Source of the DNA: Halomicronema sp. CCY15110
GTDB lineage: Bacteria > Cyanobacteriota > Cyanobacteriia > Phormidesmidales > Phormidesmidaceae
Length of the DNA stretch: 34,500 bases
Direction of reading: 5' to 3'
Assembly (NCBI RefSeq): GCF_016888165.1
Contig: NZ_JACSWC010000426.1
Location: 1-34,500 of the forward strand
Position numbers and translations under genes: made by a program. The notes below the pieces were generated by a model. That model was not told the origin of the DNA and searched no databases. It worked only from the letters and a program-made list of their open reading frames with translations. Below, piece by piece: positions 18,776 through 32,927 of the stretch (position 1 is the stretch's first letter; every line of letters begins with the position of its first letter).

Positions 18776-19108
18776 TTAGAGGGCTTGCAGGCGTCGGATC
18801 CCTTCTTGGAAGCCCTCGTCATATGCCGTGGTGGCCCGAAAATTGTCGTAGGGCAACCCATTCAGGGCATCTTGCAGCCCGCGAAAGAATTCCTCGTCCG
18901 GGGATACAGCTTGTTGGCGCTCAGCCTCGATCGCGCGTCGTTCGGCATCGTTCGCTCGGCGGTTGGAGTTGATAACGGCACTCGTGCCTGCTGCGACCCC
19001 AACCCCCCACATAAAATCCCCAAAGCTAGCTTGGGCCACCTTGGCCGTCGGAGCCAGGGACGCGATCGCGATCAAGACAGATAAGCCGGTAGCGCTGGAT
19101 CGTTTCAT
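18776..19108 (-). CDS. Small secreted protein, glycine/arginine-containing
   Basis: This 110-residue protein has an N-terminal signal peptide (SVLIAIASLAPTAKVAQASF, probable cleavage after AQA). A short Gly/Ala-rich segment (MWGVGVAAGTSAVINS) may insert in or lie against a membrane. An Arg/Glu-rich amphipathic helix (NRRANDAERRAIEAERQQA) and an acidic C-terminus follow. ATG at 19108 is preceded by GAGG at 8 nt. It is the last of a run of minus-strand genes for exported proteins (19177-21242 upstream). No family is recognised. Confidence 0.7.
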   Translation of the reverse strand: MKRSSATGLSVLIAIASLAPTAKVAQASFGDFMWGVGVAAGTSAVINSNRRANDAERRAIEAERQQAVSPDEEFFRGLQDALNGLPYDNFRATTAYDEGFQEGIRRLQAL

Positions 19109-19176
19109 AATGTCAACCTCGTCATTTCAGATACAAAAGCTGCATGCAGCGTTGTTTTTGTAGTGTTGTGTCCGAA

Positions 19177-19728
19177 TTAATCTGGGGCCGGCCGAGCCGC
19201 CATCCAGCCATCCACCGTTGCCGATGTCACCCGCACCTGACCATCGACTCGACCGAAATACAGCACCGTTTGACTAGCCGCTATCCAGGCTTCCCCCGCT
19301 AACGTTTCCACGGTTTCCATCTGATAAATTTCGGCGATGCCCAACCCATCATCGACAATGCGGATCGTCACGTAGTTTTCCAGGCTGTCCCGACTTTGAA
19401 CCTGGCCAAAGGATTGCTCTAGCATTTGACGATGGGCATCCACCCCGGCTATCCGACTCGTGGTACTGGCGGAGCCGTCGCCGTTTTTCACCGTGACGAC
19501 TGTGACCGCAAATGGGGCGATCAGTTCCAGGGTGCCTGCGACATCCTGATTGTTCCGGGCAAGTTGCAACTGATCAACAACCGCCTGCACATTTTCGGCG
19601 GTCAGCCGCCCATCCGCCTGCGCCATTTCTATTGGCGAGGCAAGGGGCACTGCCTTGGCCACCAGAGGCAGGACGGTTGTCGTCAATCCCCAAAACAAAG
19701 CCGAACAGGCTAACAACCTGACCTTCAT
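19177..19728 (-). CDS. Secreted SnoaL/NTF2-like protein
   Basis: This protein of about 183 residues has an N-terminal signal peptide (MKVRLLACSALFWGL, cleavage near AKA). The rest has the size and pattern of an NTF2/SnoaL-like cone fold: an N-terminal helix (VQAVVDQLQLARNNQDVAGT), a strand with VTVVTVKNGDG, a helix with AGVDAHRQMLEQSFGQVQ, then long antiparallel strands (VTIRIVDDGLGIAEIYQMET and TVLYFGRVDGQVRVTSATV). ATG at 19728 is chosen for its signal peptide, with GGAG 9 nt upstream. It lies 32 bp downstream of the beta-barrel gene, so the two are probably one operon. No catalytic residues are evident; it may bind a small ligand. Confidence 0.8.
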   Translation of the reverse strand: MKVRLLACSALFWGLTTTVLPLVAKAVPLASPIEMAQADGRLTAENVQAVVDQLQLARNNQDVAGTLELIAPFAVTVVTVKNGDGSASTTSRIAGVDAHRQMLEQSFGQVQSRDSLENYVTIRIVDDGLGIAEIYQMETVETLAGEAWIAASQTVLYFGRVDGQVRVTSATVDGWMAARPAPD

Positions 19729-19760
19729 ACTCACAATCTCCATCCATGCAACAAAGTTCA

Positions 19761-21098
19761 CTAAAACCGAAACTTAACCCCGACATTCGGCCCGTGGGTA
19801 AACAGGTCAAGACCCGAGTTGCCGCTGCTGTAATCGAGATAGGTGAACCCATAGGACGCCATTAGCGAGGTGTTGCCAGAAAATAACCAGTCGATACCGC
19901 CATAGCCCGCGACGGAAAAGGTTAGGTCCCCCAAACCGAAGCCAGACATGGTACCTCCGGCCACCGCTGCCAGGTTAGAGGAGAGGTTCCAACGGGCACG
20001 CCCCCCAATCATTGGTTCGAGCACCGTGCGCGACTGGTCAAACTCAAACTGATTGCCTCGAGGACCAGTCAACACCAGGTCATTGTTGAAGCTGTAGAGC
20101 CGTAAACCAGCCATCGCGTCAAAGACAAATGGCCCCAGATCAAATTCCGTGTTGGCGGTTCTGAGGGCCGTTGGCAAGTCACCATCGCCAAAGCGGTAGG
20201 CACCGCCCAGGTCAAGTTGGGTGAAAGCCGTGCCCACTGCCGCCTCAACCGGAAGCTGAGACGGTAAACCGACCTGTTGCAAAACTGGGGGCACCGGGAT
20301 ATCCGCCGCGCGACCCGTGCCCAGATTCATGTAGGCTCCGCTGAAGAAGATGCCCCAGGGGCCTTTCCAGCCTTCCACCCGACCAAAAGCGGCAAAGTTA
20401 AGGTCGTTCACGATCGCATCAAAAATGTCACCGATACCCGCATCAATCGGGGCGCTGATTCCCCTCACGGTGATGTCGCCATTGGCTCCAAAGGGTACGT
20501 AAAAGAAGGGCTCGAAGTTAAACCGCCAGGGGATGTCAGCCGTGGAATCGGCAATCTGAGCGATCGCGGGTTCCCCTGCAAAAGTCCACTCGACGGCAGG
20601 CTCAGCAACGGTGCCAGCCCCTTCCGCAACGGCGCTATTTCCTGAGGATAGCGTCGTCAGGTCAGCGGCCACCGCCCCGGCCAATGGAGCAACGCTAGGG
20701 AAATCAAACGCCACGGCGGCCATGGGAGATTCGACCGGTAGCGGTAGGTCAAGGCTGGCTGCGGGATCAGCATCTGCAACCGCCGAGGTTGCAAACGGCG
20801 AATCATCTGCATCTGCATTTGTGACAAGACTTACAGTTGGGAAGGGAGGGGCTGCAGGGGACTCAGTTGTCAGTTCAGGCCTTGAGTTGGTGGCGGTGGG
20901 GTGAACCTGGAAGTCCTCTCCCCTCCCAAAAGTTAGCACCGGCAAATTACCAGTCTTCAAGACCGGATCCGCCTCGGTCTTTGTCAAACTTTGGAGGTTG
21001 CTTCCGAGCCGATTTTCACTCGCTGCAGCGGCGGCATTCGTCACTAAAAAACTGCTCAACCCCAGAGCCAGAGCTACCAATCTGTAACTCAATCGCAT
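19761..21098 (-). CDS. Outer-membrane beta-barrel protein
   Basis: This protein of about 445 residues is predicted to sit in the outer membrane. A signal peptide (MRLSYRLVALALGLSSFLV, cleavage near NAAAAA) precedes a low-complexity Ala/Pro/Ser/Asp-rich region to about residue 170. The rest has alternating hydrophobic/polar strands with aromatic girdles (WRFNFEPFFYVPF, GPWGIFFSGAYMNLG, FVFDAMAGLRLYSFN) and ends in GPNVGVKFRF. That terminal Phe is the classical barrel-assembly signal. The open frame extends to 21242, but ATG at 21098 gives a proper signal peptide and is preferred. The SnoaL-like gene follows immediately. The substrate is unknown. The long disordered N-terminal linker is unusual for a simple porin. 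Confidence 0.82.
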   Translation of the reverse strand: MRLSYRLVALALGLSSFLVTNAAAAASENRLGSNLQSLTKTEADPVLKTGNLPVLTFGRGEDFQVHPTATNSRPELTTESPAAPPFPTVSLVTNADADDSPFATSAVADADPAASLDLPLPVESPMAAVAFDFPSVAPLAGAVAADLTTLSSGNSAVAEGAGTVAEPAVEWTFAGEPAIAQIADSTADIPWRFNFEPFFYVPFGANGDITVRGISAPIDAGIGDIFDAIVNDLNFAAFGRVEGWKGPWGIFFSGAYMNLGTGRAADIPVPPVLQQVGLPSQLPVEAAVGTAFTQLDLGGAYRFGDGDLPTALRTANTEFDLGPFVFDAMAGLRLYSFNNDLVLTGPRGNQFEFDQSRTVLEPMIGGRARWNLSSNLAAVAGGTMSGFGLGDLTFSVAGYGGIDWLFSGNTSLMASYGFTYLDYSSGNSGLDLFTHGPNVGVKFRF

Positions 21099-21376
21099 CC
21101 CAGAGTGGGCGGTAGTGCCACGGGCTAGATGTGGTCTCCCAATAGCTGCCCTGGAGGCCTGGGAGGACACTGAGACTGGGCGATGGAGAAAGACGTTAGG
21201 GGCAGACAGCATTGAAAATTGGCTCCACACGCGAAAAATCAAGGTGAATTAAAAGGGTACTCGCAGGCGGCTACTGAAATGGTGTAAAAGTGGCCGTTAA
21301 TCTCGCCTCTGCGAACGTTCACTACCGCTGGTGCCGTCCTGTCGGGGACTCAAAGGGAATCGAACACGAGTAAACT

Positions 21377-21823
21377 TTAATTGCTTTGACGGCAAGTACT
21401 CCGTCCCCATTGACCGTCATAGCCAACTGAGATTTGATCTCCGGGCTGGGCTGGACGATTCGCAAGATGAACAAGAGTCACACTGGCCGCATCGTTTACA
21501 GAACCACGCCAAATGGCCTGTCCTTTGTCATTTTTTTGATCGAAACTGAGGAAGGTTTCTGAAATTAATGATCCACCAGAGCGCCGTCGAAATTCAATCC
21601 GAGAAAATCCGGCTTCGCGGGTAAAAAATGCGGAATAGTCAACGTCATTCACCCCAATTGAGCCGTTGCAAGTCATTTGCAAACTGTCTTGATTTGGCTC
21701 TTGGGCCACTAAGGAGGCTGTTTTGCTAGTGACTAAGGGATCAGCGATCGCTGGGTCGCTGTGATCCAAGATGAGTGTTCCTGAAATAAGTACTAGAGCA
21801 GTGCCAAAAAGAACGCGATACAT
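21377..21823 (-). CDS. Small secreted protein of unknown function
   Basis: This 148-residue protein has a signal peptide (MYRVLFGTALVLISGTLIL, cleavage near AIA). The mature part has two cysteines (MTCNGSIG and RSTCRQSN) that could form a disulfide, and beta-rich stretches such as FSRIEFRRRSGG and ASVTLVHLANRPAQPGD. ATG at 21823 is preceded by GGGAG. It sits upstream of the beta-barrel gene on the same strand but nearly 280 bp away, so it probably has its own promoter. A partner copy of the 27-bp repeat lies about 390 bp upstream (22214-22240). Confidence 0.72.
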   Translation of the reverse strand: MYRVLFGTALVLISGTLILDHSDPAIADPLVTSKTASLVAQEPNQDSLQMTCNGSIGVNDVDYSAFFTREAGFSRIEFRRRSGGSLISETFLSFDQKNDKGQAIWRGSVNDAASVTLVHLANRPAQPGDQISVGYDGQWGRSTCRQSN

Positions 21824-22001: not shown

Positions 22002-22046
22002 GACAATCCGTATTCTAAAAAGTTTCTTTTTAGAATACGGATTGTC
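22002..22046. repeat. Perfect 20-bp hairpin with 5-nt loop
   Basis: GACAATCCGTATTCTAAAAA at 22002-22021 pairs perfectly with 22027-22046 across the loop GTTTC. The A-run/T-run at the stem top resembles a bidirectional terminator, but no gene ends nearby on either strand. The strength and perfection suggest a recent palindromic element or a small structured RNA. Confidence 0.6.
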
Positions 22047-22213: not shown

Positions 22214-22240
22214 CGCTATTCAAAAAGTGCAAACCTGTTT
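22214..22240 (-). repeat. 27-bp repeat, left copy flanking araC-type gene
   Basis: Read on the minus strand this is AAACAGGTTTGCACTTTTTG followed by AATAGCG. It matches the plus-strand copy at 23537-23563 at 25 of 27 positions. The two copies point outward from the AraC-type gene. It also encodes the end of a short minus-strand frame (NRFALFE-stop). Confidence 0.6.
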
Positions 22241-22481
22241 TCCATTGCATCTATAGCACTCAAGAGAATTCGACCGGTATGGCTTGACACTGATATGCCG
22301 ATCAACCCAGCCATCTAATATTTCGTAAGGGTTTCGTCCCATGGAAGTTCCAATAGGTTCACGATCACCCATTGAGGTGCGATCGCATCGATGAAGTCAG
22401 ACGCCGAAGCCCAGCCCATAACGAGACAATTTTAGACCGATGGCGAGTCAAAAACATCGTCAAATCCTTTAGTCGAATAAC

Positions 22482-23474
22482 TTATCTAGCCAACGTCTGC
22501 GAAGGCGATTCACCAAATAACTGCTTATAGTCCCGAGCAAAGTGCCCCATACTGCAAAATCCCCAAGCGCAGGCCACCTCTTTTACCTGCAGACTTTGCG
22601 GTTCCGCACTCAGCAACAGGCGGCGAATCGCGTGGAGCCGCAACACCTTAAGAAATGCCATCGGCCCCATACCAAACATGTCTTGAAACCCATAGTGGAG
22701 CGATCGCTTACTGGCATGCACCGCCTGGCAAATATTGGCCAGGGTTAGAGGGCGTTGCAGGTTCACCTCCATAAATTCTTGGGCATCCTTAACGATGTCA
22801 GCACGAGGATAAGGACGCAGGAATGCCCCATCCTCTGCGGGTTTTAACGCATTGATCAGCAGGGGCAGCAAGTCTTGCTCAATCAGATGCGTAGCCAGGG
22901 CCGTTCTCACCAGGTCCGGCTGCTGCTGACTGATCCAAAAGAGTTGCTGTAGATAGCAGACCAGGGGCGCGAACCGGCTGCCCTCGGGCACCACCACATT
23001 GCGCCGCATAAAGACTTCATCAAGATCATCGCGTCCTGATTGGGTGACATAGGTTTGAAAGAGTGCCTTTGACACGGTGATGCAGCCCAGGTTGGCCCCC
23101 TGGGAATGGGTGATGTGATTGACTTCGCGATGCGCATCAAACCCAAAAATACAGTCTGTTGTTAGAGCAATATCGTAGGCATAGGCAGTTTGACGAAAAG
23201 AGTCGAGAGGAAGGGTAAATACCAAGCTGTTTGTCGGTTTAGCGCCCATGACTTGCACGGCATGCTGCAGCTGGAGTTGGTAAATTTGCAAATTTCCCTG
23301 ATCAAGAAATGTCAGTCCCCCCTGAAACGGCCCTTGGGTCAGTTGAGTACAGTTGACTTCCCAACCCTTGAGGCTCTCGCTCATGCAGTCAACATCATTA
23401 AAACAAGCACTTATGAGCCGAGGCATTCCATCCAAAAAAGGTGGGCTAGCGGTCGTTAATTGATTAAGATTCAT
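22482..23474 (-). CDS. AraC-family transcriptional regulator
   Basis: This 330-residue cytoplasmic regulator has a C-terminal AraC/XylS double helix-turn-helix (about residues 225-330): RPLTLANICQAVHASKRSLH, FQDMFGMGPMAFLKVLRLHA and VKEVACAWGFCSMGHFARDY followed by FGESPSQTL. The N-terminal part of about 200 residues is a beta-rich sensing region without a recognised sugar-binding signature. ATG at 23474 is used. It is divergent from the sulfatase/nucleotidase region and is the only regulator nearby. Inverted copies of a 27-bp sequence lie 63 bp upstream of its start and 241 bp beyond its stop. This suggests autoregulation and control of both flanks, but that is inference. Confidence 0.92.
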   Translation of the reverse strand: MNLNQLTTASPPFLDGMPRLISACFNDVDCMSESLKGWEVNCTQLTQGPFQGGLTFLDQGNLQIYQLQLQHAVQVMGAKPTNSLVFTLPLDSFRQTAYAYDIALTTDCIFGFDAHREVNHITHSQGANLGCITVSKALFQTYVTQSGRDDLDEVFMRRNVVVPEGSRFAPLVCYLQQLFWISQQQPDLVRTALATHLIEQDLLPLLINALKPAEDGAFLRPYPRADIVKDAQEFMEVNLQRPLTLANICQAVHASKRSLHYGFQDMFGMGPMAFLKVLRLHAIRRLLLSAEPQSLQVKEVACAWGFCSMGHFARDYKQLFGESPSQTLAR

Positions 23475-23975
23475 GTTCTTTATCTTTTCTTAGACAAAAT
23501 ATAAATGCCTTCTTCGGCAATTAAAATCGCCAAAGTAAACAGATTTGCACTTTTTGAATAGTGCGGTCAGGAGCTATTCTGTCATGGTTTTCAAGGCTTT
23601 TGGTAGGTGACGAAGGGGATTAATTAAAAATATAAACAATGTTTGCTTATTCTATTCTTGCACTGAATTAGCAATATTCTCAGAATGTATGAACCTGGTG
23701 TGCTCTTCAGGCACTTAGCCTGGTTCGAGACCGACATTATCCGATTGTTACTGATCCCAAGCCATGGTGTCCTATGGGCTTCGCATCTTGAGAAAGTAGT
23801 CTTGATGAAATCAGGTTTTGAGCTGAGAGGAATTCAACAGTTTTATCTGTTTTTCAAAAAATAACATGAAGCGACAGAGACGGCTTTCAGAAATAATAAT
23901 TTCCTTGCCGGCTACCTCCTTTAAGATTGCCAACCTTGCCCTTACTGTATTTCTTCGCTAATGGAGATTTTCTCT
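23475..23975. promoter_or_regulatory. Divergent intergenic region between araC-type gene and the sulfatase locus
   Basis: About 500 bp, AT-rich, without a convincing gene. It contains the right 27-bp repeat at 23537-23563 and probably the promoters for the AraC-type gene and for the plus-strand locus. No sigma-70 boxes could be assigned with confidence. Confidence 0.5.
23537..23563 (+). repeat. 27-bp repeat, right copy flanking araC-type gene
   Basis: AAACAGATTTGCACTTTTTG followed by AATAGTG differs from the left copy (22214-22240, opposite strand) at two positions. It lies 63 bp upstream of the AraC-type start and about 410 bp upstream of the truncated sulfatase gene. It may be an operator or an end of an eroded mobile element. 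Confidence 0.6.
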
Positions 23976-24749
23976 ATGAGAAAGCTGAGATCTGAGGAGT
24001 TTTCCGTGGGAGTTGCTCAGCATTTTCACCTCCGATTCTTGGGTTGCTGTGTGGCGATCCTGCTGGCCTTTGGGATGGCCTTTTCGCCCCTGCACGGGGC
24101 AGCTTTAGCCGCGGCTTATTCGTCCTATGGTTCTTACCAGCAAGGTTGGGAAGGAGCCTTCCGCATTCCCTTCCTGGTGCGCTGGCCGGGGCACATTCCC
24201 GCTGGTAGCGTGTCCAATAACATCATGTCTCACCTGGATTGGTTGCCGACGTTGCTGGCGGCAGCTGGGGCTCCGGATATTACAGACAAGCTGCTCACGA
24301 GCTACAAAGCCAACGGCAAGCGCTTTAAAGTCCATCTCGATGGCTATAACTTCCTGCCGTATTTGACCGGCGAAACGCAGGCATCCCCCCGTGAGTCTTA
24401 CTTCTATTTCTCCGATGACGGCGACCTGCTGGCGATGCGCTATGACAACTGGAAGCTGCATTTTGCCCAGCAGCGGACACCGGGCACCCTGGATATTTGG
24501 GCGGAGCCGTTCGTCAAAACTCGCGTACCGTTCATCTACAACTTGCGCACGGATCCTTACGAACGGGTCTCGATTACGTCCAATACCTATTGGGATTGGT
24601 TGCTTGACCATGCCTTCCTGCTGGTTCCGGCCCAATCGTATGTGGGCCAGTTCCTGGCGACCTTTAAGGACTATCCGCCTCGGCAGAAGGCGGCCAGTTT
24701 TACCGTGGATGAAGCCCTGGAAATGCTGCAAAAGTCTGCCAGCAGCTAG
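23976..24749 (+). pseudogene. Sulfatase C-terminal half joined to a signal peptide
   Basis: The product of about 257 residues starts with an export signal (HLRFLGCCVAILLAFGMAFS). It then jumps, through a Ser/Tyr-rich junction (AAYSSYGSYQQGWEGAF), directly into the C-terminal half of an arylsulfatase: IPFLVRWPGHIPAGSVSNNI, MSHLDWLPTLLAAAGAPD, KVHLDGYNFLPYLTGET, YFSDDGDLLAMRYDNWKL and FIYNLRTDPYERVSI. The N-terminal half that carries the metal-binding aspartates and the C-x-P-x-R formylglycine motif is missing, so it cannot be a working sulfatase. It looks like an internal deletion that kept the reading frame. Start choices are ATG 23961, ATG 23976 (GGAG at 9 nt) or GTG 24006 (GAGGAG at 6 nt). 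It could still be expressed and secreted. Confidence 0.8.
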
Positions 24750-26080: not shown

Positions 26081-26177
26081 TGCCTTGCGACGATCGCAGT
26101 TCCTTTCCGGTTTTTCCCACAAGGTTGAGATGGCCTTCGAGAGAAGGCTATCCCGTCTGGAATCGAGTCCAATTGCC

Positions 26178-28082
26178 ATGAACAATATTCCACTCAATCG
26201 TCGGGCATTTTTAATAACTTCTTTGATTGCAGCCCCCACTGCCATGTTTTCTGTCAATGCCTTAGAAGCCCTGGCCGCTACTCCCGGCAAGCAAGTCTTC
26301 TCCATTCTCCACACCAACGACATGCACTCTAATGTCGTTGGTGTGGGGCCGCTGCGCGACTATACCCCCCTGAGCCGCAACGACGACCAGACGCGGGGTG
26401 GCTACGCTCGCCTGGGGGCACTGATTGCCCAGCGCAAAGCCGAACTGGAGCAGCTTGGCCCAGTGCTCGTCCTGGATGCGGGGGACTTCAGCATGGGCAC
26501 GGCAGTGGCTGCCGCCTGTCGGGAATTGGGGGCCGAACTCCAGCTCATGGGGCAAATGGGCTACGACGCTACTACATTTGGCAACCATGAATTTGACCTG
26601 GGGCCTGACGGCTTGGGGCAGGCGATCCAACAGGCCCAAGCAGCGGGAGACATGCCGACCATACTGGCGACCAATAGTGATGTGAGTGCCCCTTCAGACC
26701 GGCTGAAGGAGCTGCAAACGCTAGTCGAGGCGGGAGCCATTCAGCCCTACACCGTGATTGAACGGGGCGGCTTGCGGTTTGGCCTGGTGGGTTTGATTGG
26801 GAACGATGCCTTTAAATATGCCCTTGATCCGGGGGAGGTGGTGTTTAGCGACCCCATCGAAACGGCTCGAACCTGCGTGACAAAACTCAAGCAGGAAGAC
26901 CAGGTGGATGTGGTCATTGCCCTCAGCCACGGGGGCGTCGTGCAAGGCCCTGATGGGCAATTTACCAGCGGTGAAGACCTGACTTTACTGACCGCCGTGC
27001 CGGAGCTGGATGTGGTGATTGGTGGCCACACGCACTCTGAACTGACGGAGCCGCTAAAGGTGGGGAATCGTCCCGTCGTCCAAACTGGCAAGTATGGCGA
27101 AAACCTGGGGGAACTGGTGCTCAGTCTGGAAAACGGCCAGATTCAGGTTGAATCTTATCGGCTGATTCCGGTGGATGATCAGATTCTGGGCGATCGGAAG
27201 CTCCAGGCCCAGGTGGACTCGTTTTTGCAACGATCAGGCCCGGCGGCCTTTGCCTCTCGCGGCTACGCAACCAGCCAGCCCCTGGTCGTAATTTCCGAAG
27301 ATTGGCCGATGGATTATGCCGATATTGAGGCCAGCACGCCCCTGGCCAATGTGGTCTCCGATGCGTTCCGTCTGGCGACGGGCAGCCAAGTGGGATTTAC
27401 GGCAAATGGCCTGATTCGGGCGGGGTTAGTGAAGGGCAATCGCGGTGGCGTGCAAACCGTGTATGACGTATTTGCGATCGCCCCCCTGGGCGGCGGCATC
27501 ATCGACCCAACGGCAGGCAGTGCTCTCGTCAAAGGCTACTTTACCGTAGCCGAATTGAAGAACATTCTGGAGTTTTGTCTGATCGATGATCCCCATCATC
27601 CCGGTGAGTTTTTCCCTCGGGTATCGGGGCTGCGGTTTTACTACGACCCTAGTCGTCCTCGCTTTGATCAGGTTATGGCGGTGGAGCTCGGCAACCTGGA
27701 TGAGGGCTATCGCCGCCTGGACTGGGCCGATCCGACCCTTTACAGCGTCGCGACCAGTTTATTTGGCGGCAAAATCGTTGTGGCGATTCCTCAACTGACG
27801 AAGGGAGCGTTACCGCTACAGGCCAAAAAGGCCGACGGTACGCCACTGACAAATCGCCTGGAGGCTTTGGTTGACCCGCGCGAATCAACCAGCCCCTATG
27901 TGTTGTCTACCCATTCCGATCTGGATGCATCTGTGGCTGCCGTCGATGTCGCCAATCGAGAAATCAAAGAGTGGCAGGCCATTATGGATTACTTTGTCAG
28001 CTTACCCAACAAGACCCCAGACGGCATTTCGCAGCTGACTAAAGATGCCCACACGCAGGAGGTTCGAGCCATCAAGGTCTAA
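26178..28082 (+). CDS. Tat-exported UshA-type 5'-nucleotidase/phosphoesterase
   Basis: This 634-residue enzyme of the 5'-nucleotidase family releases phosphate from nucleotides or related esters outside the cytoplasm. The N-terminus carries a twin-arginine signal (LNRRAFLITSLIAAP), implying export folded with metals. The metallophosphatase domain (about residues 40-330) has all signature motifs: HTNDMHSN (D48, H50), DAGDFSMG, GNHEFD (N136, H137), SHGG and GGHTHSE. The C-terminal substrate-binding domain follows (about 370-600), with STPLANVVSDAFR, FTANGLIRAGL and VFAIAPLGGG. ATG at 26178 begins the Tat signal; an open extension to a TTG at 26085 is not needed. The sulfatase gene follows after 45 bp, suggesting an operon for nutrient release from organic esters. 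Confidence 0.93.
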   Translation: MNNIPLNRRAFLITSLIAAPTAMFSVNALEALAATPGKQVFSILHTNDMHSNVVGVGPLRDYTPLSRNDDQTRGGYARLGALIAQRKAELEQLGPVLVLDAGDFSMGTAVAAACRELGAELQLMGQMGYDATTFGNHEFDLGPDGLGQAIQQAQAAGDMPTILATNSDVSAPSDRLKELQTLVEAGAIQPYTVIERGGLRFGLVGLIGNDAFKYALDPGEVVFSDPIETARTCVTKLKQEDQVDVVIALSHGGVVQGPDGQFTSGEDLTLLTAVPELDVVIGGHTHSELTEPLKVGNRPVVQTGKYGENLGELVLSLENGQIQVESYRLIPVDDQILGDRKLQAQVDSFLQRSGPAAFASRGYATSQPLVVISEDWPMDYADIEASTPLANVVSDAFRLATGSQVGFTANGLIRAGLVKGNRGGVQTVYDVFAIAPLGGGIIDPTAGSALVKGYFTVAELKNILEFCLIDDPHHPGEFFPRVSGLRFYYDPSRPRFDQVMAVELGNLDEGYRRLDWADPTLYSVATSLFGGKIVVAIPQLTKGALPLQAKKADGTPLTNRLEALVDPRESTSPYVLSTHSDLDASVAAVDVANREIKEWQAIMDYFVSLPNKTPDGISQLTKDAHTQEVRAIKV

Positions 28083-28127
28083 CGATGAGTTGTGCAACTG
28101 GCGGTATTCAATCTTTTTGAGGCACTT

Positions 28128-30503
28128 ATGCTTAAACGCATCTGGAAATTCGCCCTGACCTGGGTGGTAATGGTGGCGATCGCCCTGCAATCGGCTGCCG
28201 TCCCCACCCAGGCCGCTCCCTATCCTGCGGCCCAGGCAACCCTGGCTACCGCCACCCAACTGCCCCAGCCCGACCCCAAATTTACGGGGAAAGTCGGCAA
28301 CACCTACCAAGATTCGGTCCCCAGCTATCCCCAGCCGATTAAAGCCCCGGCGGACGCCCCCAACGTGCTGCTGATTTTGCTAGATGACGTCGGCTTTGGC
28401 ATGACCTCCCCCTTTGGTGGTCCCGTGCCCACCCCCAACCTGGATAAGCTGGCCCAAAACGGCCTTTCCTACACCCGCTTCCACACCACCGCCCTGTGCA
28501 GCCCCACCCGGGGAGCCCTGCTGACCGGACGCAATCACCACAGCATCGGCACCGGGGTGATTACCGAATTGGGCACGGGCTACCCCGGCTACACAGGCAT
28601 CATCCCCAAAAGCACCGCCTTGGTGTCGGAAACCCTGAAGGACAACGGCTACGCCACCGCCATGTTCGGCAAATGGCACAACACCCCGGAACAGGACATC
28701 AGCCCCGCTGGTCCCTTCGATCGCTGGCCCACCGGCCTCGGCTTCGACTATTTCTACGGTTTTAACCAGGGGGAGGCCCACCAGTATTACCCCACCCTGT
28801 ACCGCAACACCGTCCACGTCGATCCCCCGGCCACCCCGGCAGAGGGCTACCACTTCACGACCGATATGACCGATGAGGCGATCGCCTGGACTCGCAACGT
28901 CCGTGCTGCCAACCCCGACAAGCCCTGGTTTGTCTACTTCAGCACCGGAGCGGTTCATGCCCCGCACCATGTCCCGCCGGAATGGCGCGCCAAGTTCAAA
29001 GGCCAGTTCGACTCCGGCTGGGATAAGCAGCGGCAACTCACCCACGCCAAACAACTAGAGCTGGGCGTCATCCCCGCCGGGACGCAGCTCACCCCTCGTC
29101 CAGCGGAAATCCCCGCCTGGGATAGCCTCACCGACGACGAGAAGACCGTCTACACCACCTTGATGGAAAACTACGCCGGGTACATGGCCCACACCGATTA
29201 CCATGTGGGTCGCCTGGTTGATTCCCTGGCAGCCTCTGGTGAACTGGACAACACCCTGATCTTCTACATCATTGGCGACAACGGCGCGAGTGCCGAAGGC
29301 GGACTGGAAGGCACCTTCAGCGAGCTGGCCAGTCTACTAGGGATTCAGCTCGGTCTGGAAAGTACCATCAACCGTCTGGATGAAATCGGCGGCCCCACTA
29401 GCGAACCTCACGTTCCCGTGGGTTGGGCCTGGGCGATGGATGCGCCCTTCCAGTGGACGAAGCAGGTGGCCAGCCACTTTGGCGGCACCCGCAACCCGAT
29501 GGTGGTGCACTGGCCCAACGGCATTCAGGCCAAAGGCGAGGTCCGCACCTAGTTCCACCATGTGATCGACGTGGTGCCGACCATTCTGGAAGCCGCCCAC
29601 ATTGCGGCCCCGCAGGAGGTCAACGGCATTACCCAGAAACCCATCGAAGGGGTCAGCATGGCCTACTCCTTTGACGCTGCCGCTGCGCCCGATCGCCGCA
29701 CCAATCAGTACTTTGAGATGTTCACCAACCGAGCCATCTACGATCATGGCTGGACGGCGGTGAGCCGCTTTGGCCTGCCCTGGGACACCAACAGCCGCAC
29801 CGGCAATTTTGAGGAGTCGCCCTGGGAGCTGTACCACGTCGAGGAAGACTTCAGCCAGGCCAATGACCTGGCAGCAGAGAATCCGGCCAAGCTGAAGCAG
29901 CTACAAGCCAAGTTCATTCGGGAAGCGAAAAAGTACAACGTCCTCCCCCTCGACCCCCGCTTTGCCGAGCGCCTTGACCCCACACTACGGGTGGGGGGCG
30001 AACCAGCCACCCACTGGACCTACTATGGCAACAACGTCTGGCTCCCCGAACCCGTCGGCCCCCAGCTGTTTCCCCGAGGGCACACCATCACCGCTCAGGT
30101 GGATATTCCCCAGGGCGGCGCGGATGGCGTGATCGCCTGTGCCGGAGGCTTTTCAGCAGGCTGGTCGCTGTTCGTGCAGGATGGTAAGCCCAACTTCCGC
30201 TATACGGTGTTTGAAGTCGGTGATGTCACCATCCCCGGCACGGTGAAGCTGCCGGAGGGCGAGGTCACCCTCAAAACCGAGTTCATCCCCGATGGCGTTC
30301 CCGAAGGGGCTGGCACGGTGAAGCTGTACGTCAACGACCAGCCAGCGGGAGAAGGGAAGCTGACCCGCACCCTCTTCCGCCACGGTCTAGAGCCCTTTGA
30401 AGTGGGGCGCGACTCGATTACCGCGATCGCTCCCGAGTACCAGAATCAGGGCAAGTTCGAGTTCACCGGCCAGATCGAGCAGGTGGCCTTTGCGCTGAAG
30501 TAA
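28128..30503 (+). pseudogene. Sulfatase interrupted by a single in-frame amber codon
   Basis: This exported sulfatase would have about 791 residues if read through. A signal peptide (MLKRIWKFALTWVVMVAIAL) leads to the type I sulfatase domain: metal site NVLLILLDDVGFGM, formylglycine motif C124-S-P-T-R in HTTALCSPTRGALLTGR, MFGKWH, and GDNGASAEGG. Codon 475 is TAG (29550-29552), exactly where the tandem paralogue has Gln in RFQFSHVID (here RT-stop-FHHVID). The frame continues undamaged to 30503 through HVIDVVPTILEAA and a C-terminal beta-sandwich. A CAG-to-TAG change explains it. The upstream part alone (486 residues at most) lacks the C-terminal region. Otherwise the length and sequence parallel the intact 787-residue gene 60 bp downstream. 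It is a pseudogene, a suppressible allele or a sequencing error. Confidence 0.9.
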
Positions 30504-30563: not shown

Positions 30564-32927
30564 ATGTTCAATCGCATCTGGAAATTTGCTCTGGCCTGGG
30601 TGGCGATCGCCGCCTTCGTGCTCCAATCCGCCGTGCCCCCCGCCCTGGCTCAGGAAATTTTGCCCCACCCGGACAAGCCCTTTGCTGGCAAAATTGGGCT
30701 GACCTATAAAACATCCGAACCCGTTAAATCACAGCTCAAACTACCCAGCACCTACGGCATCGAAAACGCTCCCAACGTACTGCTGGTGCTGATTGACGAC
30801 GTGGGCTTCGGCCAGTTCAGCAGCTTTGGCGGCAGCATCCCCACCCCCACCATGGATCGGGTGGTGAAAAACGGGTTGCAGTTCACCCAGTTCCACACCA
30901 CCGCCCTCTGTTCCCCCACCCGCGCGGCGCTGCTCACCGGGCGCAACCACCACTCCATCGGTAACGGCGTGATTACCGAAGCAGGCACGGGCTTCCCTGG
31001 TTATTCCGGAGTAATTCCTGACAACGCCGCGACGTTTGCTCAAGTTTTGCAGGCCTACGGCTACGCCACCGCCTGGTTTGGCAAAAACCACAACGTGCCC
31101 GACTGGGAAAGCAGCATGGCTGGCCCCTTCGATCGCTGGCCGCGCGGCTTGGGCTTTGACTACTTCTACGGCTTTGTCGGCGGCGACACCGACCAGTTCC
31201 ACCCTGCCCTGGTGGAAAATACGACCCGCATTGAACCGCCTGAAATCAACGCTGATGGCTCTCCCTATCACCTCAGCACCGACCTGGCCGATCACGCCAT
31301 CAACTACATTCGTCAGGTGAACGCGGTTTCTCCTGAAAAACCTTTCTTCGTCTACCTCTCACCCGGTGCCACCCATGCCCCCCACCAGGCTCCCCAAGAG
31401 TGGATCGACCAATTCAAAGGCCAGTTCGACAGGGGCTGGGACCAGTACCGCATCGACACTTTCGAGCGGCAGAAGAAGCTCGGTGTAATTCCCGCTGACG
31501 CCAAGCTCACCCCCCGTCCCGCCGCCCTCGCCGCCTGGGCTTCCCTCTCCCCCGAGGAGCAGCGGGTCTATGCTCGCATGATGGAAGTGTTTGCCGGATT
31601 CACCGCCCATGTGGACCATGAGGTGGGTCGTGTGGTGGATGCGATCGACCAGATTGGCGAACTCGACAACACGCTGGTGATCTACATCGCGGGCGACAAC
31701 GGCTCCAGCGCAGAAGGCGGCTTCAACGGTCTGTTGAACGAAATGACCTTCTTCAACGGCCTGTCCGAAAAGCTGGAAGCAAAGGTGGCGGCGATCAACG
31801 ACCTGGGCGGTCCCCTGTACTACAACCACTTCCCCGCCGCCTGGGCCTGGGCCATGGATTCCCCCTTCCAGTGGACCAAGCAAATTGCCTCCCACTTTGG
31901 CGGCACCCGCAACGGTATGGCGATGTCCTGGCCCAACGGCATCAAAGATCAGGGCAGCAAACGCTTCCAGTTCAGTCATGTGATCGACATTGCGCCGACG
32001 ATTTTGGCGGCGATCGGCATCGACCAGCCCGTGCAGGTGAACGGCATCACCCAGAAGCCCATTGAAGGCACCAGCCTGACCTACACCTTCGAGGATGCGA
32101 AGGTCCCCACTCGCCACACGACTCAGTATTTTGAGATGGCGGGCAATCAGGGCATTTACAGCGACGGTTGGATGGCTAGTGCCCTGTGGAGCGAACCCTG
32201 GGTACCGGAACCGCCAGCGGATAAAAACATCCTGAACCTGGATTGGGAGCTGTACCACATTGACGAAGACTTCACCCAGGCGGTGGATCTGGCCGACCAG
32301 ATGCCCGAAAAGCTCCAGGAGATGAAAGACCTGTTCTACGCCGAAGCGGCTAAGTACAATGTGCTGCCCTTGGATGGTCGCAAAATCGCCAGATTGAATG
32401 TCGCCAACCGTCCCAGCCTGACGGCAGGTCGCACCCACTTTGCCTACCCACGGGGCATTCGTGTCCCAGAAGGTTCATCCCCTGACCTGAAACACGTCAA
32501 CCACACCATTACCGCCCATGTGGAAATTCCCTCCCAGGGGGCGGAAGGCATGTTGATGACCCTGGGGGGACGGTTCGCCGGATACGGCCTGTTTGTGAAG
32601 GACGGCAAACTCGTCTACCACTACAACCTGGCCGGGGTCGAGCGGTACAACATTGAGTCTGATCAGCGTATCCCCACGGGCAAAGTGGTGCTCAAGGCGG
32701 AGTATAAGACTGATGCCAACCAGCCCTATGCCGGGGGGACGGTAACGCTGTACGCCAACAACAAAAAAATTGGCCAGGGTCGGGTGGAGAAGAGCATTCC
32801 CAACCGCGTCACCCTGGACGAGACGATGGACATCGGCTTCGATACGGGGACTCCGGTGATGGAAGCCTACGAGCTGCCCTTTGCCTTTACCGGCAAGCTG
32901 GATGAGGTGGCGATCGACTTGGGTTAG
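30564..32927 (+). CDS. Secreted sulfatase (formylglycine-dependent), intact
   Basis: It is predicted to hydrolyse sulfate esters outside the cytoplasm. The 787 residues open with a signal peptide (MFNRIWKFALAWVAIAAFVL, cleavage near ALA) nearly identical to the upstream paralogue. The sulfatase domain spans about residues 65-560: metal aspartates in NVLLVLIDDVGFG, C116-S-P-T-R (Cys converted to formylglycine) in HTTALCSPTRAALLTGR, WFGKNHN, SPGATHAPHQAP, and metal site AGDNGSSAEGG. A C-terminal LamG-like beta-sandwich (about 640-787) begins at HTITAHVEIPSQGAEG. AGAGGA precedes the ATG. The long C-terminal domain is typical of large bacterial arylsulfatases. A formylglycine-generating enzyme is not encoded in this window and must act in trans. 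The natural substrate cannot be read from sequence. Confidence 0.94.
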   Translation: MFNRIWKFALAWVAIAAFVLQSAVPPALAQEILPHPDKPFAGKIGLTYKTSEPVKSQLKLPSTYGIENAPNVLLVLIDDVGFGQFSSFGGSIPTPTMDRVVKNGLQFTQFHTTALCSPTRAALLTGRNHHSIGNGVITEAGTGFPGYSGVIPDNAATFAQVLQAYGYATAWFGKNHNVPDWESSMAGPFDRWPRGLGFDYFYGFVGGDTDQFHPALVENTTRIEPPEINADGSPYHLSTDLADHAINYIRQVNAVSPEKPFFVYLSPGATHAPHQAPQEWIDQFKGQFDRGWDQYRIDTFERQKKLGVIPADAKLTPRPAALAAWASLSPEEQRVYARMMEVFAGFTAHVDHEVGRVVDAIDQIGELDNTLVIYIAGDNGSSAEGGFNGLLNEMTFFNGLSEKLEAKVAAINDLGGPLYYNHFPAAWAWAMDSPFQWTKQIASHFGGTRNGMAMSWPNGIKDQGSKRFQFSHVIDIAPTILAAIGIDQPVQVNGITQKPIEGTSLTYTFEDAKVPTRHTTQYFEMAGNQGIYSDGWMASALWSEPWVPEPPADKNILNLDWELYHIDEDFTQAVDLADQMPEKLQEMKDLFYAEAAKYNVLPLDGRKIARLNVANRPSLTAGRTHFAYPRGIRVPEGSSPDLKHVNHTITAHVEIPSQGAEGMLMTLGGRFAGYGLFVKDGKLVYHYNLAGVERYNIESDQRIPTGKVVLKAEYKTDANQPYAGGTVTLYANNKKIGQGRVEKSIPNRVTLDETMDIGFDTGTPVMEAYELPFAFTGKLDEVAIDLG

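Follow-up and report, generated by a model that had tools for sequence, protein, structure and literature searches.

Either side of an AraC-type regulator gene in the cyanobacterium Halomicronema sp. CCY15110 lies a copy of the same 27-bp sequence, and the question this raises is whether the copies are sites at which the enclosed regulator acts on the genes beyond them or have some other origin. The window in which they occur is the whole stretch of DNA analysed, 34,500 nucleotides. The favoured answer, highly probable on comparative grounds, is that both copies are operators of the enclosed regulator, by which it would govern, to its left and right, genes for secreted proteins, sulfatases and a nucleotidase.

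A regulator between two copies of one sequence

The features from which the question arises are as follows.

22482..23474, minus strand: AraC-family regulator, 330 aa (Pfam HTH_18 78 bits, HTH_AraC 46.6 bits)
22214..22240 (core 22216-22233), minus strand: predicted left operator copy, 25/27 identical to the right copy, facing a secreted-protein gene
23537..23563 (core 23544-23561), plus strand: predicted right operator copy, facing a sulfatase-type gene, with a counterpart in the sister genome G001

The agreement of the two copies at 25 of 27 positions, and their inverted, outward-facing disposition around the regulator, from which the original prediction set out, are confirmed by an all-pairs scan of the whole window. 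With a threshold of at least 25 matches, the scan returned just one pair besides this one (which appears in two registers): a direct repeat whose members, at 29469 and 31887, lie within the two sulfatase paralogues. No such pair arose in any of 40 dinucleotide shuffles of the window. The repeat at 22214 and 23537 is the sole non-coding 27-mer pair of its kind in the window, and the exact core common to its two copies is TTTGCACTTTTTGAATAG. The predicted distance of some 390-410 bp to the outward-reading genes likewise holds: 391 bp separate the left copy from the gene start at 21823, and 398 or 413 bp the right copy from the possible starts at 23961 and 23976; counted from a 17-base core, the ORFs start 392 and 399 nt further on. 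Autoregulation through the right copy, whose start stands 63 bp before the regulator's start codon, is possible, as a candidate only. Between the left copy and the secreted-protein gene, at 22002-22046, two 20-base arms form a perfect inverted repeat around a loop of 5 bases; at up to 2 mismatches it has no other place in the window's own genome (G000) and none in G001.

The regulator reading frame is intact. Both of its Pfam scores exceed the cut-off, and the C-terminal double helix-turn-helix domain of the AraC type is present; in the AlphaFold model (mean pLDDT 91.4) this follows a predicted, strand-rich N-terminal domain. Foldseek places CuxR, ToxT and Rns at the top of its listing, with whole-chain TM-scores that are low (at most 0.41), and its weaker matches are to proteins that we take to be cupins. 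The nearest NCBIfam models are EutR (106.8 bits, cut-off 319) and AndR (97.4 bits, cut-off 350). The similarity to both is partial and far under the cut-offs, which places the protein outside EutR by score, and its neighbours are sulfatases rather than eut or anthranilate genes. The gene neighbourhood is set out below.

19761..21242, minus strand: 493-aa protein, next gene leftward and possible target, with homologues beside the regulator in relatives
21377..21823, minus strand: 148-aa protein, putatively secreted, a candidate for control through the left copy (G001 orthologue 70% identical)
23961..24749, plus strand: sulfatase remnant, 262 aa, a signal-like start joined to a C-terminal part
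26085..28082, plus strand: 5'-nucleotidase/metallophosphoesterase by Pfam, possible member of a right-hand transcription unit
28092..29552, plus strand: sulfatase (Pfam Sulfatase 206 bits), same direction as the right copy
30564..32927, plus strand: sulfatase (Pfam Sulfatase 198 bits), same direction as the right copy, relatives' homologues being preceded by the site

Neither the 148-aa nor the 493-aa protein has a Pfam match. The latter has homologues of 54-58% identity next to the regulator in G445, G444 and G001. Further left, at 18776-19761, are two small genes, also lacking a Pfam match, whose homologues in several relatives (61-82% identity) are likewise close to the regulator.

Core sites in related genomes

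In G001, which belongs to the same genus, the regulator is 74% identical and the locus partly rearranged. Counterparts of the core stand in front of three genes there: the 148-aa secreted-protein orthologue (1 mismatch), a full-length sulfatase of 632 aa (2 mismatches) and, with a copy of its own, the nucleotidase orthologue (3 mismatches). The total within 3 mismatches is 8 places against 3 for a reversed control. When the left spacers of the two genomes are compared, the best local alignment is the site itself, scoring 22 where shuffled sequences reach 16 at most; on the right it is again the site, at a score of 15, the same as the shuffled maximum. The spacers have otherwise diverged.

A search of G000 with the 18-mer at up to 3 mismatches gave 10 places, versus 3 for a reversed-pattern control, and among them no further convincing copy beyond the pair. 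One additional place has a single mismatch (G000:C39:16314). It was set aside as probably coincidence, because it is coding, within an 851-aa ORF, and the equivalent stretch of G001 has 3 mismatches.

Across 386 genomes of the phylum, TTTGCANTTTTTGAATAG occurs at 5 places in 3 genomes: three in G000, one in G001 and one in a distant genome (G123), the last taken as chance. Within the 63 genomes of the family, TTGCRNTTTTTGAATAG occurs at 25 places in 10, and its reversed control at 1 place. A close regulator, defined by a best E of 1e-76 or lower (47-100% identity), a cut chosen after the list was known, is present in nine of the 63 (G000, G001, G425, G429, G432, G436, G440, G444 and G445). The core accompanies it in all of these except G432, i.e. 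in 8 of 9, and is found in 2 of the 54 others (G430 and G442), for which Fisher's test gives p 1e-7, to be read as a guide since related genomes are not independent. Relaxing the cut to E 1e-30 leaves the core in 9 of 15 genomes with a match and 1 of 48 without. The exception, G432, whose regulator is 52% identical, has no core in a genome that is 84% complete.

The genes that follow the 25 places were identified by searching 1500 nt after each with marker proteins (tandem sites before one gene being counted separately, with three such pairs among the 25). The expectation that extra copies would lie upstream of sulfatase or nucleotidase genes is borne out in relatives, the window's own genome showing no further convincing copy. 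Over the 25, a sulfatase lies ahead at 17 places and a nucleotidase at 1; small, putatively secreted-type genes follow at another 4. The sulfatase is in sense after 16 of the 25, the window's remnant among them, and at the place in L211 another gene comes first, with the sulfatase after about 1.25 kb. The small genes comprise the 148-aa family at two places and a 176-aa gene, without a Pfam match, at two. Altogether 22 of the 25 face a sulfatase, nucleotidase or small gene, and 24 precede or adjoin genes; the remaining three are two sites antisense into the regulator (G444 and G445) and one coding coincidence. The proposal that the copies are operators of one regulator is thereby supported, the site standing before target-type genes and co-occurring with the regulator in relatives.

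Some observations on individual loci may be added. The two antisense sites, at L170 9680-9697 (G445) and L171 9359-9376 (G444), are good copies directed into the 3' end of the regulator gene and carry the -10-like hexamers TATATT and TATATG, possibly giving an antisense transcript. The 272-aa gene that a site precedes in G429 was searched against the window and nine related loci, and no homologue came up at E 1e-3. An SBF-type transporter, DUF202 domains and a formylglycine-generating enzyme cluster near sulfatases at L052 9674-13374 and L054 4050-4886.

G425, G429, G444 and G445 carry tandem sites at a distance of exactly 52 bp, with either a sulfatase or the 176-aa gene downstream of them. 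Their positions are:

L170: 5891 and 5943
L171: 11604 and 11656
L173: 11514 and 11566
L175: 10962 and 11014

The spacing, about five helical turns, suggests that a pair of regulator molecules binds along the same face of the helix. A second copy at this spacing was sought in the window, where no other matrix match exceeded 6 bits; the matrix scores of the two window sites are themselves circular, both having belonged to the training set.

Promoter geometry and competing explanations

A YANNNT hexamer lies exactly 20 nt after the 16-base site at 15 of 29 family sites, always as TANNNT; the next best spacing has 7. Among the 29 are upstream members of tandem pairs, in which no hexamer would be expected. 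At sites from other named loci the proportion is 12 of 14 (11 CANNNT and 1 TANNNT), with 3 at the next best spacing, the scarcity of TANNNT among them counting against the operator reading. Class II AraC-type activators bind a site that sits in place of the -35 element. In relatives the site would span roughly -48 to -33, the place of that element, and the class II geometry, a site at a fixed distance from the -10 element, is found in them at spacing 20. Conservation of the site, its co-occurrence with the regulator, its placement before target-type genes and its spacing are established by comparison of these genomes.

From this we infer that the regulator binds and activates, and that both window copies are presently active. 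It would bind operators of about 18 bp, TTTGCACTTTTTGAATAG, flanking its own gene, with its two helix-turn-helix motifs most likely contacting TTGCA and GAATAG across the T-tract. Given the 20 nt that separate site and -10-like hexamer in relatives, the bound regulator would replace the -35 element, recruiting RNA polymerase by class II activation. The trigger, judging by the neighbour genes alone, would probably be a sulfate ester or sulfur need. Solved homologues in the PDB include MarA, SoxS, Rob and RamA, which share the homologous DNA-binding domain and, in their promoter architecture, an asymmetric site of about 18 bp by the -10 element in the -35 place. The window regulator differs from them in its predicted additional N-terminal domain, in its site and in having sulfatase and nucleotidase genes as candidate targets.

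The case is at its weakest on whether both copies are still active in the window's genome. Neither TANNNT nor YANNNT stands at spacing 20 beside either copy, and the distance to the ORFs is long; a consensus promoter scan, with 1 promoter-like site versus 4.2 in shuffles, was uninformative. Next to the right copy, moreover, the product of 23961-24749 covers just positions 241-301 of the Pfam Sulfatase profile (its last 61). With the C-terminal portions of two proteins, of 632 aa and 581 aa, it shares 77-78% identity, and by comparison with intact relatives it has been reduced in frame, the middle with the CTAGR motif, catalytic in sulfatases, being absent. Full-length homologues are present in G001 and, in the same genome, at G000:C361, and the truncation may be either a real loss or an assembly fault. 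The window copies might accordingly be decaying relics with disused promoters, in a regulon that is real in relatives, a possibility that qualifies the operator reading and is compatible with it. It is rather unlikely, though worth keeping in mind, given that the two copies agree at every base of the 18-base core, that the regulator frame is intact and that the downstream nucleotidase and two sulfatases retain their Pfam domains.

Much less probable is that the sites are regulon operators bound by another protein, e.g. a paralogous AraC regulator, with adjacency to the present one incidental. Such a paralogue does exist in the genome with a sulfatase for a neighbour, and G442 and G430 carry the core without a close regulator match; these two genomes, however, are just 87% and 83% complete, and against the notion stand the presence of the core in eight of nine genomes with the close regulator, its rarity otherwise, and the site variant that related regulators have in their own upstream region. 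The paralogous regulators of both G000 and G001 adjoin sulfatases likewise. Between regulator and sulfatase, the G001 paralogue has a clear site variant (15.2 bits) and the G000 paralogue a weak one only (9.8 bits, versus 9.6 elsewhere in the same locus).

The other two origins raised by the original prediction found no support. Inverted, outward-facing copies around one gene, the regulator being the sole gene between them, are what the terminal remnants of a small mobile cassette might look like; in relatives, however, single or tandem copies precede individual genes, and about 9 bases outside the window copies on either side are unmatched, with no direct duplication of the target type. Nor do the G001 copies bracket the same unit: there the regulator is separated from the sulfatase by an ORF of 436 aa, so the copies bracket no constant unit, and a cassette origin is very improbable. 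Duplicated coding DNA is scarcely credible, for while the C39 copy is coding and both window copies can be read as NRFALFE-stop, the latter is trivial for two copies of one DNA sequence, and what relatives conserve before genes (24 of 25 places, as above) is a short DNA motif and no reading frame.

Related regulators across the cyanobacteria

That the operators belong to the enclosed regulator, the reading preferred above, can be pursued beyond the family. A profile scan of contigs found no loci with a two-sequence alignment and 76 with seven homologues, of which 53, cyanobacterial by title (L093-L144 and L148), were analysed and 23 dropped. The site matrix, built from examples within the window's own family and cut to the core, was applied to the 400-base stretch upstream of regulators, at least 400 bp being available for 50 of the 53 loci, reduced to 29 non-redundant ones. 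The relaxed motif is significant at 14 of the 29, pointing away from the regulator in 12 of the 14, and not significant at 15. With 100 column-permuted matrices the mean was 2.95 and the maximum 12, and the excess over them is clear, though such a control yield is too high to be neglected. Many picocyanobacterial loci have the motif as TGCACTTTTTGAGTG or near it; L093, a Leptolyngbyaceae MAG contig, shows no site.

By tblastn, 32 of the 47 loci that have over 1.2 kb of upstream sequence carry a sulfatase divergent from the regulator and no further than 1 kb from it, Synechococcus and Cyanobium loci included. Any sulfatase is found in 40 of the 53, and a homologue of the formylglycine-generating enzyme in 29. 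A literature search, drawing mostly on sources other than subscription journals, found no AraC regulator of cyanobacterial sulfatases. According to one study, freshwater and not marine picocyanobacteria carry arylsulfatases, which are tied there to scarce sulfur (PMC9361551). The sulfatases of the Synechococcus and Cyanobium loci, which lie divergent from relatives of the window regulator, may be of this kind; AraC goes unmentioned in the main text of that study.

These several lines lead us to favour, with some reserve, a new cyanobacterial sulfatase regulon, in which one AraC subfamily, from filamentous forms of the Leptolyngbya/Nodosilinea type to Synechococcus and Cyanobium, would act through one recognisably conserved operator exactly 20 nt before the -10 element. 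It would switch on sulfatases, with the nucleotidase and sulfatase-maturing enzyme nearby, and its N-terminal domain would sense organic sulfate or sulfur shortage. Because the mechanism is the classical AraC arrangement, the gain is a new regulon and not a new principle. It supplies a specific operator, a promoter layout and a set of genes through which many cyanobacteria may regulate how sulfate is freed from organic compounds, which for those living in fresh water is a matter of nutrient supply.
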